A stretch of 40,046 nt of DNA from Algibacter pacificus (GTDB lineage: Bacteria > Bacteroidota > Bacteroidia > Flavobacteriales > Flavobacteriaceae). The stretch lies in the NCBI RefSeq assembly GCF_008033385.1, contig NZ_VOGY01000017.1:1-40046 (forward strand), written 5' to 3'. The notes under the pieces were generated by a model, which searched no databases, had not been told where the DNA came from, and worked only from the letters and a program-made list of their open reading frames with translations. Shown piece after piece: positions 2,865 to 5,906 of this stretch. Every line of letters begins with the position of its first letter. Position 1 is the first letter of the stretch. A program made the translations under genes and the position numbers.

Positions 2865-3512
2865 ATGAAACTGAAAATTTGCGGCATGAAATATCAAGAT
2901 AACATGACTGAAATAGCGGCTTTACAGCCCGACTATTTAGGGTTTATTTTCTACGATAAATCGGCTAGAAATTTTGATACATCCATTCCCGAAATATCAA
3001 ATTCTATAAAAAAGACTGGTGTTTTTGTTAATGAAAACTTACAAGTTGTTATTGAAAAAATAAAAACATTCGATTTACAAGCGGTACAACTTCATGGTGA
3101 AGAAACTCCAGAATTCTGTATCGACTTAAAAAACAGTTATGCTGAATTTAATTCTAAACCTCTTGAAATCATTAAAGTATTCTCCATTAAAAACGAATTC
3201 AATTTCGAAGTTTTAAAACCTTACGAATCTGTTTGCGATTACTTTTTATTCGATACCAAAGGCAAACACCCTGGCGGAAACGGTTATACTTTCGATTGGA
3301 ATGTACTAAACGCATACCCATCGACTAAACCCTTCTTTTTAAGTGGTGGCATTGGTTTCGATGAAGTTGAAGCGGTTAAAGAATTTCAAAAAAGTACCGC
3401 ATCAAAATACTGTTACGCTTTAGATGTAAACAGTAAGTTTGAAATAGAACCCGGATTAAAAGATATTGAATTATTAAAAACATTTAAACAAAGTTTGTCA
3501 TTCCGCAGTTAA
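2865..3512 (+). CDS. trpF: phosphoribosylanthranilate isomerase
   Basis: Performs the Amadori rearrangement of phosphoribosylanthranilate to CdRP. Motifs are KICGMK at the N-terminus (catalytic Cys), QLHGEE in the middle, and DTKGKHPGGNG and SGGIG in the phosphate-binding half. The ATG at 2865 is chosen because it gives the family's usual LKICGM start; a TTG nine bases upstream adds nothing conserved. The last residues, SFRS, and the stop codon are encoded inside an extragenic hairpin (3500-3520), so the natural C-terminus appears to have been rewritten by insertion of that element. Function is not expected to suffer because the tail lies beyond the barrel. Confidence 0.96.
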   Translation: MKLKICGMKYQDNMTEIAALQPDYLGFIFYDKSARNFDTSIPEISNSIKKTGVFVNENLQVVIEKIKTFDLQAVQLHGEETPEFCIDLKNSYAEFNSKPLEIIKVFSIKNEFNFEVLKPYESVCDYFLFDTKGKHPGGNGYTFDWNVLNAYPSTKPFFLSGGIGFDEVEAVKEFQKSTASKYCYALDVNSKFEIEPGLKDIELLKTFKQSLSFRS

Positions 3513-3570
3513 TGTGGAATTCATTATAAATTAAACCAAAAAATAAGATTCCCTCCTTGGAGGGAATGAC
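3497..3570. repeat. inverted pair of extragenic hairpins (REPIN-like) between trpF and trpB
   Basis: The left hairpin has 8-bp arms (3500-3507 and 3513-3520, one G-T pair, loop GTTAA). The right hairpin has perfect 9-bp arms (3548-3556 and 3559-3567). The unit begins GTCATTCC and ends GGAATGAC, so the two hairpins are inverted relative to each other. The right one belongs to the same family as the two hairpins around the GIY-YIG gene: read on the - strand it has the TCATT...AATCT frame, a CCAAGG centre and a GGAGGGAAT arm. The left hairpin supplies the trpF stop codon, and the right one ends ten bases before the trpB start. Confidence 0.8.
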
Positions 3571-3580
3571 AAAAGAAAAC

Positions 3581-4765
3581 ATGATGAATTATAACGTAAA
3601 CGAAAAAGGCTACTACGGTGAATTTGGTGGCGCTTTCATCCCCGAAATGCTTTACCCCAATGTGGAAGAATTACGCCAAAATTATTTAAAAGTTATGGCC
3701 GAGCCCGATTTTAAAAAGGAGTTCGATCAACTTTTAAAAGATTATGTTGGGCGTCCCTCTCCGTTGTATTTTGCAAAACGCCTTTCGGAAAAATACAATA
3801 CTAAAATTTATTTAAAGCGTGAAGATTTAAACCATACGGGTGCGCATAAAATAAACAATACTATTGGTCAAATTTTAATGGCTAAACGCTTAGGAAAAAC
3901 TAGAATTATTGCCGAAACTGGAGCCGGACAACACGGTGTTGCTACCGCTACCGTTTGTGCTTTAATGGGGTTGGAGTGTATTGTTTATATGGGTGAAATT
4001 GATATTGCCAGACAAGCACCAAACGTAGCAAGAATGAAAATGTTAGGCGCAACCGTTGTACCAGCTCTTTCTGGAAGTAGAACTTTAAAAGATGCTACAA
4101 ACGAAGCCATTCGTGATTGGATTAACAATCCTGTAAACACACATTACATTATAGGTTCGGCTATTGGGCCACATCCATATCCGGATATGGTTACTCGATT
4201 TCAATCGGTAATTTCTGAAGAAATAAAATGGCAATTAAAAGAACAAATTGGGAGAGAAAATCCCGATTATGTTGTGGCTTGTATTGGTGGTGGCAGTAAT
4301 GCTGCTGGAACATATTACCATTATTTACACGAACCTGATGTAAAAATCATTGCTGTGGAAGCTGCTGGTTTAGGCGTAGATTCTGGTGAAAGTGCCGCGA
4401 CTTCGGTTTTAGGTCACGAAGGTGTTATTCACGGGTGTAAAACCTTGTTAATGCAAACTAAAGACGGACAAATAACAGAACCCTACTCTATTTCGGCTGG
4501 ATTGGATTACCCGGGTGTTGGCCCAATGCATGCGCATTTATGCAAAACGGGACGCGCAGAATTTATGTCGATTACCGATGACCAAGCTATGAATGCGGGA
4601 TTAGATTTATGTAAACTAGAAGGTATTATTCCTGCAATTGAAAGCTCGCATGCTTTAGCTATTTTTGAAGAAAGAACGTTTAAACCCGACGATGTGGTTG
4701 TGGTGAGTCTTTCTGGTCGTGGCGATAAGGATTTACAGAATTATATTGAATATTTTAAAATATAA
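3581..4765 (+). CDS. trpB: tryptophan synthase beta chain
   Basis: PLP enzyme that condenses indole with serine to give tryptophan; works as an alpha2-beta2 complex with TrpA. The PLP-binding lysine lies in HTGAHKINN (Lys about 90), followed by GAGQHG (about 114-119) and the phosphate-binding GGGSNA (about 236-241). The C-terminal SGRGDKD loop is present. Two ATGs in a row (3581, 3584) are the sensible starts. An in-frame TTG at 3557 would put the hairpin sequence into the protein and is rejected. About 394 residues, normal length. It is separated from trpA by the inserted nuclease gene. Confidence 0.97.
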
Positions 4766-4777
4766 AGTTTCATTTTT

Positions 4778-4801
4778 TCATTTCCGCGAAGGCGGAAATC
4801 T
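4778..4801. repeat. extragenic hairpin on the 5' side of the GIY-YIG gene
   Basis: Perfect 8-bp arms ATTTCCGC (4780-4787) and GCGGAAAT (4792-4799) around a GAAG loop, flanked by TC and CT. It lies 12 bases after the trpB stop and ends 11 bases before the nuclease ATG. It is inverted relative to the hairpin at 5099-5122 and shares its TCATT...AATCT frame and its loop, while the arm bases differ compensatorily. Confidence 0.85.
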
Positions 4802-4812
4802 AAAAACAAAAC

Positions 4813-5097
4813 ATGGAAGTACATTACGTTTACATATTAACAAATAAAAACCATACTGTTTTATATGTTGGGCGCACAAAACAATTAAAAGTTCGGCTAA
4901 ATCAACATAAAAACAATAGTTCAAAATCCTTTACAGGAAAATATATTGTTGATAAATTGGTTTACTTTGAAACAACAAAATATGTAAACAATTCAATAAA
5001 AAAAGAACGACAAATTAAGAAATGGAATAGAGCTTGGAAAATCAATTTAATAAATAGTTTAAACCCAGATTGGAAAGACCTTTCCGAATACATTTAA
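4813..5097 (+). CDS. GIY-YIG domain nuclease inside the trp operon
   Basis: A 94-residue single-domain GIY-YIG protein of the small UvrC N-terminal/YhbQ-like type. The GIY counterpart is YVYIL (residues 5-9) and the YIG counterpart is YVG (18-20). The conserved Arg and His are in VRLNQH (Arg28, His32), and the metal-binding Glu is in KKERQIKKW (Glu65). All catalytic positions are therefore intact. It has no second DNA-binding domain. The gene splits trpB from trpA, which are normally adjacent, and sits in a compact module (4778-5122) closed on both sides by inverted copies of one hairpin family. It is probably transcribed with the operon. The substrate is unknown; DNA cleavage or nicking at the hairpins is an inference only. 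A UvrC repair role is unlikely because the rest of UvrC is missing. Confidence 0.88.
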   Translation: MEVHYVYILTNKNHTVLYVGRTKQLKVRLNQHKNNSSKSFTGKYIVDKLVYFETTKYVNNSIKKERQIKKWNRAWKINLINSLNPDWKDLSEYI

Positions 5098-5098
5098 A

Positions 5099-5122
5099 AG
5101 ATTCCCTCCTTCGAGGGAATGA
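5099..5122. repeat. extragenic hairpin on the 3' side of the GIY-YIG gene
   Basis: Perfect 8-bp arms ATTCCCTC (5101-5108) and GAGGGAAT (5113-5120) around CTTC, starting two bases after the nuclease stop codon. On the - strand it has the same TCATT...AATCT frame and GAAG loop as the hairpin at 4778-4801, so the two face each other as inverted repeats. An A-run, not a T-run, follows on the + strand, so it is not a typical terminator for the operon. Confidence 0.85.
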
Positions 5123-5141
5123 AAAAAAAATAGTCTTAAAA

Positions 5142-5906
5142 ATGAATCGAATAAATAAAAAATTACAAGAAGATAAAAAACTATTGTCGATATACTTTAC
5201 AGCAGGTTACCCGAGTTTAACCGATACCGTATCCATCATTGAAGATTTAGAAAAAAATGGTGTGGACATGATAGAGATTGGACTTCCGTTTAGTGATCCT
5301 TTGGCCGATGGACCTACTATTCAGGCGAGTTCTACAAAAGCGCTAAAAAACGGGATGACCACCGAAGTGCTTTTTGATCAATTAAAAGATATTAGAAAAA
5401 CAGTGTCTATTCCGTTAATAATTATGGGTTATTTTAACCCCATGTTGCAATATGGTGTAGAGGCATTTTGTAAAAAATGTCAGGAAATAGGTATCGATGG
5501 ATTGATAATTCCAGATTTACCTGTGGATGTTTATAAAGAAGACTATCAAGCCATTTTTGAAAAATACGGCCTAATAAACGTGTTTTTAATTACACCACAA
5601 ACATCGGTAGAGCGCATTAACTTTATAGATTCTGTATCGAATGGGTTTATTTATATGGTGAGTAGCGCCAGTGTTACCGGAAGTAGTTCTGGTTTTGGGG
5701 ACGTGCAAACAAGCTATTTTAAACGTATTGCCAATATGAATTTGAAAAACCCGCAGGTTATTGGATTTGGAATTTCGGATCATGAAACGTTTACGCAAGC
5801 CACGGAGTATGCAAAAGGAGCCATTATTGGTAGTGCTTTTATAAAACATATTACAGAAAACGGTGCTAGTAAAACAGAGGATTTTGTGAAATCAATCTTA
5901 AATTAA
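5142..5906 (+). CDS. trpA: tryptophan synthase alpha chain
   Basis: Cleaves indole-3-glycerol phosphate to indole and glyceraldehyde 3-phosphate and passes indole to TrpB. The catalytic Glu is in VDMIEIGLPFSDP (Glu45) and the catalytic Asp in DPLADGPTIQ (Asp56), matching Glu49/Asp60 of the enteric enzyme. IDGLIIPDLP and the phosphate-binding GFGIS follow. The ATG at 5142 gives the 254-residue family length. An upstream TTG frame from 5070 would run through the nuclease 3' end and the hairpin and is rejected. Confidence 0.97.
   Translation: MNRINKKLQEDKKLLSIYFTAGYPSLTDTVSIIEDLEKNGVDMIEIGLPFSDPLADGPTIQASSTKALKNGMTTEVLFDQLKDIRKTVSIPLIIMGYFNPMLQYGVEAFCKKCQEIGIDGLIIPDLPVDVYKEDYQAIFEKYGLINVFLITPQTSVERINFIDSVSNGFIYMVSSASVTGSSSGFGDVQTSYFKRIANMNLKNPQVIGFGISDHETFTQATEYAKGAIIGSAFIKHITENGASKTEDFVKSILN

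Follow-up and report, generated by a model that had tools for sequence, protein, structure and literature searches.

A small GIY-YIG nuclease gene in the trp operon of a Flavobacteriaceae-like genome has an 8-bp hairpin at each border, the two hairpins facing each other, and this gene-between-hairpins unit is a broad pattern of which the trp locus is one case. We consider it probable (about 0.75) that the GIY-YIG protein is the putative dedicated hairpin-reading enzyme of the CGTC-REPs, which it would cleave, as RAYT is that of the GTAG-REPs. The support in hand consists of the position of the gene between facing hairpins, the co-variation of hairpin and nuclease, the dispersal of gene-less hairpins, and the occurrence of the unit at unrelated sites where it is absent or reduced in relatives. 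The window below means the whole stretch of DNA analysed, 40,046 nt in length.

Layout of the trp Locus

The genes and hairpins of the locus are as follows.

2865..3512, + strand: trpF, host gene (open reading frame list; named from operon position and sequence, without a family search)
3496..3520, + strand: left hairpin of a gene-less facing pair (REPIN-like) in the trpF-trpB spacer, TGTC-ATTCCGCAGTTAATGTGGAAT (sequence)
3546..3571, - strand: right hairpin of the trpF-trpB pair, ATTCCCTCCTTGGAGGGAAT-GACA at 3548-3571, the tag GACA equalling TGTC (sequence)
3581..4765, + strand: trpB, host gene (open reading frame list; served as tblastn query)
4776..4801, + strand: upstream hairpin of the GIY-YIG module, TCATTTCCGCGAAGGCGGAAATCT at 4778-4801 (sequence; position kept in 10/10 trpBA-type loci)
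4813..5097, + strand: GIY-YIG nuclease gene, 94 aa (Pfam PF01541, E 4.4e-15; AlphaFold; fold search)
5099..5124, - strand: downstream hairpin of the module, AGATTCCCTCCTTCGAGGGAATGA at 5099-5122, tag GAAA (equalling TTTC), facing the upstream hairpin (sequence; position kept in 10/10 trpBA-type loci)
5142..5906, + strand: trpA, host gene (NCBIfam TIGR00262 match, 5163-5897)

The hairpins TCATTTCCGCGAAGGCGGAAATCT and AGATTCCCTCCTTCGAGGGAATGA each form 8 perfect pairs around a 4-base loop. The upstream one, with a degenerate tag TTTC, an 8-bp stem, the loop GAAG and the tail CT, lies 11 bases 5' of the ATG, and the downstream one lies 1 base past the stop codon. The original prediction had described a small GIY-YIG gene between two inverted hairpins in the trpB-trpA interval, and its coordinates, hairpins and both spacings were confirmed. 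It had also placed a third hairpin in the trpF-trpB spacer; a family member is indeed present there, but as a facing pair (3496-3520 and 3548-3571). The TGTC tags of this pair point outward over 3496-3571, and the left hairpin ATTCCGCAGTTAATGTGGAAT contains one G.T pair. The left hairpin also overlaps the trpF stop codon (3510-3512) and encodes the final trpF codons and the stop. A search of the window with Rfam matched no family, and an RNA element was rejected as a candidate on that result. At the window start (1-900), a 28-base stretch at 49, 345 and 641 forms a tandem repeat with a period of about 296 bases.

The pattern ATTYCC-N8-GGRAATC gave 15 matches in the same genome, while the reversed-pattern controls gave 0 and 1. 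Six copies elsewhere in the genome are identical to the upstream hairpin of the GIY-YIG gene over the pattern's 21 bases. These results indicated that the window hairpin recurs in its own genome above chance. Five GIY-YIG matches were found in this genome, namely the window gene, a second small gene (L001) and three within longer reading frames, and none of the latter three has an adjoining hairpin. The second small gene (L001/L174, C3:284860-288087) is embedded in an array of repeats, GTCACTTCGAAG...GAGATTTCTCCTAGCGTCGAAATGACA, which are a longer, imperfect relative of the same hairpin frame.

Hairpin Bracketing in Flavobacteriaceae and Beyond

The family was surveyed in 149 genomes, nearly one per genus, of which 117 had a GIY-YIG match at E 1e-3 or better. 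Fourteen of the weakest matches (E 1.2e-12 and above) were left out; of the 136 distinct genes recovered, 124 remained once those with a low score or short flanks (12) had been dropped. Strict hairpins (7 perfect pairs) within 100 nt were present on both sides of 45/124 genes compared with 5/215 control ORFs. With a wider definition (strict, or the GTC frame with one mismatch, within 150 nt; control ORFs more than 600 nt away), both sides were occupied in 89/124 genes compared with 11/222 control ORFs, and at least one side in 120/124. The nearest upstream hairpin within 100 nt carried a forward tag in 31 cases and a reverse tag in 1, and the nearest downstream hairpin a reverse tag in 31 and a forward tag in 6; no GTC tag was present on 28 of the nearest upstream hairpins and 24 of the nearest downstream ones, and a single hairpin on either side had both directions. 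The median distances from hairpin to gene (upstream and downstream) were 26.5 and 16 nt in flavobacteria and 28.5 and 15 nt elsewhere.

In 29/124 genes, both 100-nt flanks lacked a strict hairpin; on inspection by eye, almost all of them have longer imperfect hairpins in the frame GTCATT...AATCTC, L053 being one exception. The strict search therefore understates the association, because it misses these imperfect long hairpins. A search for the GTC frame found both sides occupied in 27/124 genes with 6 perfect pairs and in 65/124 with one mismatch (shuffled 0.2); it missed every trpBA-type locus because the tag there is TTTC. At L054 (G067) and L087 (G135), at least three GIY-YIG genes cluster within 7 kb, and G135 holds two identical copies.

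A scan of named genomes in other phyla covered 80 of 580 candidates, 72 of which had 150 nt of flank on both sides. At these 72 loci, strict hairpins occurred upstream of 58, downstream of 60 and on both sides of 48 (controls on both sides, 6/136). Canonical GTC-tagged hairpins (GTCA and a stem of at least 7) lay on both sides of 38/72 loci compared with 0/109 control ORFs, and within 250 nt they lay upstream of 50/72 and downstream of 53/72. The nearest upstream tag was forward in 39 cases and reverse in 9, and the nearest downstream tag reverse in 41 and forward in 14. By record title, the cases with hairpins on both sides came from Pseudomonadota, 'Deltaproteobacteria', Bacteroidetes, Planctomycetes, Omnitrophus, Berkelbacteria and Moraniibacteriota. 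Hairpin bracketing, which the original prediction suggested looking for in other members of the clade, is therefore usual (89/124 flavobacterial genes; 48/72 strict in other phyla).

Among 18 plasmid loci fetched of 35 records, tagged hairpins lay on both sides of 12, two of them with a CCTC tag, on one side of 2 and on neither side of 4. On a Planktothrix agardhii plasmid (L176), the GIY-YIG gene has an MmeI-type restriction gene on one side and the DISARM gene drmA on the other, with no tagged hairpins. In Sphingomonas paeninsulae (L188), rnc and era are separated by a GIY-YIG reading frame that likewise has no tagged hairpins. Carriage by phage was rejected, with one weak match (E 8e-4) among 50,697 phage records.

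Relation to CGTC-REPs and RAYT

In the part of Di Nocera et al. (2013; PMC3733652) consulted, a dedicated transposase is described as apparently missing for the CGTC-REPs, and the authors' guess is that the enzyme is extinct or has been replaced. As far as that part goes, the CGTC-REPs and the flanking hairpins have in common a GTC tag, an 8-9 bp stem beginning with AT, a 4-5 base loop, a short tail and facing (head-to-head) dimers, and the host genera given there (Sinorhizobium, Azospirillum, Neisseria, Novosphingobium) overlap the genera of our plasmid loci. In contrast to the CGTC-REPs as reported there, with no dedicated enzyme, a GIY-YIG gene lies between the repeats here.

The tag of the class is carried by GIY-YIG-flanking hairpins in general, and as TGTC by the trpF-trpB pair. 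The hairpins of the window gene differ, with TTTC on both rather than CGTC, TGTC or CCTC, and a CT tail; in the stem they agree with the class (8 bp, ATTTCC/ATTCCC, loop of 4, facing). Their tail is CT[CAT], and relatives show CCA, CCAG and CT types. Judged by these sequence features, the hairpins of GIY-YIG genes outside the window's lineage are CGTC-REPs. The association originally proposed for this lineage is present in it and extends far beyond it, matching the published class. The recurrence of the unit across many bacterial groups suggests the GIY-YIG enzyme as the missing partner of this class of hairpin repeats.

RAYT/TnpA-REP genes are single genes between facing GTAG-REPs, with a clade-specific REP type, dispersed gene-less pairs (REPINs) and mostly old resident copies. 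As far as the partial accounts consulted go, the GIY-YIG units share each of these features. Unlike RAYT, their enzyme is a hydrolytic GIY-YIG nuclease rather than a Y1 HUH protein, and their tag is GTC rather than GTAG; lacking both the Y1 domain and the GTAG tag, the GIY-YIG unit would be similar to RAYT-REP in working and not a member. The original suggestion, that a GIY-YIG nuclease replaces the Y1 enzyme in a module resembling REP/RAYT, is supported, with cleavage and transposition as its predicted activities. A full-text literature search, whose scope took in few subscription papers and no bioRxiv preprints, returned no paper tying GIY-YIG genes to REPs; in the parts of the sources seen, a GIY-YIG gene appears in PMC9465073 in a table only and the term 'GIY' is absent from PMC12306157.

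Association of Hairpin Type and Repeat Number with the Nuclease

The upstream hairpin of a gene resembled its downstream hairpin with a similarity of 0.523 (69 genes), compared with a permuted mean of 0.255 and a highest value of 0.333 in 5000 permutations. Between genomes, protein similarity and hairpin similarity gave a Mantel r of 0.639 (99 genes; highest of 500 permutations, 0.089). Some genomes, e.g., G036, G113, and G052, hold several nucleases with their own hairpin type apiece. When the hairpins were shuffled within genomes only (22 genomes, 62 genes), 0 of 1000 shuffles reached the observed value, the statistic being how well a gene's hairpins match those of its closest protein relative from a different genome. 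These results indicated that hairpin type co-varies with nuclease type, even inside one genome.

Repeat number and nuclease presence also go together, as had been predicted. With kinship ignored, the searched REP pattern was present in 45/73 family genomes with a close gene compared with 15/76 without, and at least five REPs were present in 22/73 compared with 2/76. In a class sample around Kaistia, again ignoring kinship, the corresponding values were 37/57 compared with 19/136 and 25/57 compared with 7/136; without the centre genome, 36/56 had the pattern and 24 had at least five REPs. All 20 selected named gene-bearing genomes have REP copies (1 to 311), with 0 for the reversed-pattern control in each. 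The window-type hairpin is dispersed in 8/10 genomes with a trpBA-type gene (mean 4.4, own-gene copies subtracted in these ten) compared with 23/139 others (mean 0.31), kinship being ignored. REP-rich genomes without a close nuclease were G073 (31 copies) and G106 (15) in the family and seven in the class sample (G198 with 78, G344 with 25, five others with 7-12). Gene-bearing genomes without the searched pattern numbered 28/73 in the family and 20/57 in the class, the pattern covering some hairpin types only. These results indicated that nuclease-bearing genomes are richer in such repeats, though not without exception.

Age and Selection at trpBA

The search of 149 family genomes gave a trpBA-type orthologue in 10, one of which is truncated. 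The orthologues have protein identities of 81-89% and a pN/pS of 0.06-0.20, with synonymous sites near saturation, and the enzyme at trpBA is under purifying selection. All 8 pairs are intact in 19/20 trpBA-type hairpins, the stem pairs having been picked via the hairpin search, which favours intact hairpins; the three variable pairs change as compensated pairs. The two downstream changes co-occur and may reflect an exchange of one hairpin type for another. Recently dispersed near-identical gene copies within a genome were not found, pairs above 86% DNA identity being from the same locus only, so current movement is not seen. These results indicated that the copy at trpBA is an old one, passed on together with its operon and not recently mobile. 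The locus had been described as 'mobile or self-maintaining', and the second term suits trpBA better, because the orthologue is present in 10/149 genomes with near-saturated synonymous change.

Properties of the Enzyme

The window protein matched the Pfam families GIY-YIG, T5orf172 and GIY_YIG_2 only, and a Y1 HUH transposase domain was absent. In an alignment of 35 sequences, Y7, Y18, G20, R28 and E65 were invariant and H32 and N84 nearly so, which we take to be the catalytic residues of GIY-YIG nucleases. With its GIY/YIG motifs and conserved Arg, Glu and Asn, the protein belongs by sequence to the GIY-YIG superfamily. The AlphaFold model was confident (pLDDT 93.8, pTM 0.85). Its best match in a Foldseek search against the PDB was the UPF0213 entry 1zg2 (rank 1, E 8e-4, TM 0.61), a single-domain protein of the UPF0213/YhbQ type and of similar length; Slx1 entries followed (E 0.026 at best, probability 1.00), and then UvrC N-terminal domains. 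A sequence search of the PDB gave UPF0213 EF2693 at E 0.6 only. According to the PDB titles, Slx1 cuts branched DNA. As a point of difference, Slx1 requires Slx4 and carries a further domain.

These folds could point to a resident repair nuclease which removes or resolves REP cruciforms and is selected to stay near them, the REPs spreading by other means. The strong purifying selection at trpBA, the existence of REP-rich genomes without the gene, and the annotation of E. coli YhbQ as a 'DNA damage response nuclease' would fit such a role. However, it leaves unexplained the tight facing pairs round the gene, the own hairpin type of each paralogue within a genome, and the occurrence at unrelated loci. 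Moreover, E. coli yhbQ and the three other GIY-YIG genes of the window's genome, unlike the window gene, have no adjoining hairpin. We regard this explanation as unlikely, and prefer an enzyme dedicated to its own flanking hairpins.

Filled, Hairpin-Only and Empty Sites

For the trpB-trpA comparison, 40 regions were chosen from 143 trpA matches over the cut-off, a non-random set weighted to genomes with GIY-YIG genes or REPs. Near-touching trpB and trpA, assumed normal in the original prediction, are common in relatives, with a spacer of 2-11 nt in 12/39 further genomes of this chosen set; several of these spacers contain no hairpin. Seven genomes (G124, G105, G087, G126, G045, G077 and G089) have, by eye, a facing hairpin pair without a gene, some stems being imperfect. 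Presence of the gene in all relatives, under which the original prediction was to fall, is not seen: G056 has two decayed window-type hairpins without the gene, and in G119, of the window's own genus, the gene is absent and half of the downstream hairpin remains. Other nuclease types, 40-44% identical, occupy the site in G052, G037 and G139; that of G139 is decayed, and in G037 no trpB was found within 900 nt. Match coordinates place a GIY-YIG gene ahead of trpA in no fewer than 13/143 genomes.

A different repeat of about 100 nt, starting with GCGTTAGGGATTG and ending with GTAACGC (in some cases as the reverse complement), was observed in the trpB-trpA spacer of seven fetched genomes (L096 in G119, L117, L126, L134, L120, L130 and L107). 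Part of a similar repeat lies near one dispersed hairpin in the window's genome (L274).

Empty sites were found not only at trpB-trpA but also at sufB-sufC and fnrL. In Azospirillum lipoferum, a GIY-YIG gene lies between sufB and sufC, while three congeners with 95-97% flank identity have spacers of 87-129 nt with neither the gene nor a tagged REP. The Sphingobium fnrL spacer is filled in TomMM7A, holds a single REP palindrome in TomTYG64, and has neither in TomTYG72. In this between-species comparison, filled, hairpin-only and empty states exist at trpB-trpA and fnrL, and filled and empty states at sufB-sufC. In G014, a full gene is accompanied by two internal-deletion copies of 51 codons in tandem, each of them bounded by REPs, which may picture how gene-less pairs arise.

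A nuclease gene or its carrier might instead insert into existing REPs or REP pairs without being responsible for them. Insertion sequences targeting REPs are described in the part of PMC1525189 seen, the REP pair on each side of some genes, e.g., at Azospirillum sufB-sufC, could represent insertion between two pairs, and TomTYG64 has a single palindrome where relatives hold the gene. Against this, the trpBA-type genes are flanked by hairpins of their own type although several relatives' short spacers are hairpin-free, the distances between hairpin and gene are short (medians of 26.5/16 and 28.5/15 nt), and the internal-deletion copies keep both hairpins. We find insertion into landing sites quite improbable.

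The GIY-YIG fold is that of homing endonucleases, and empty alleles exist, as expected of an element that cleaves unfilled alleles and is copied into them during repair. However, the sites (trpB-trpA, sufB-sufC, fnrL-response regulator, rnc-era, hflX-mazG) have no evident common sequence, and homing was therefore rejected as the main reading. Unlike homing endonucleases, with which it has the catalytic fold in common, the enzyme is a bare domain with no separate DNA-binding part, no intron and no common target site, and a homing origin appears very improbable. That the hairpins are ordinary transcription terminators or serve to stabilise the mRNA of a small operon gene is hardly credible and was rejected on the control-ORF counts. 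The hairpins do have stable stems in untranslated operon spacers, but two-sided flanking is rare for other genes (11/222; 0/109), the tags, facing orientation and protein-hairpin co-variation would be unexpected, and the window gave no Rfam match.

Proposed Mechanism and Implications

We propose that the unit is a REP-like hairpin pair carrying its own nuclease gene, and that the 94-aa protein would be the dedicated enzyme of its flanking hairpins. As a minimal Slx1/UPF0213-like structure-selective nuclease, it may recognise the hairpin and its unpaired GTC tag, either as an extruded cruciform or on the single-stranded lagging strand, and nick at the hairpin base. With two facing hairpins, the segment between them could be cut out or copied. 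GIY-YIG enzymes hydrolyse DNA without a covalent intermediate, and pasting elsewhere is for this reason assigned to host repair or replication. The mechanism of movement, taken by itself, is tentative, and we put it somewhat below even odds. The trpBA unit would now be an old resident in which selection keeps both the enzyme and the hairpins.

REPs are among the commonest repeats of bacterial genomes. For one of their two large super-families, the published description came with no enzyme, and the GIY-YIG protein is a candidate partner for it. At about 95 residues the candidate should be easily expressed, and matched hairpin substrates are available from hundreds of loci, which makes a direct test possible. 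If the proposal is true, two unrelated nuclease folds have independently partnered with tagged REP hairpins, and many genes annotated as 'GIY-YIG nuclease family protein' or 'excinuclease ABC subunit C' would gain a specific role. The CGTC-REPs, which occur in several phyla, may even constitute a second and independent system of REP transposition. Its enzyme would be a bare GIY-YIG nuclease, a structure-selective hydrolase reading the hairpin together with its GTC tag and moving facing pairs by way of host repair, and enzyme clade and hairpin type would co-evolve; we hold this to be possible but short of an even bet, and if true it would represent a new kind of bacterial mobile-element enzyme.
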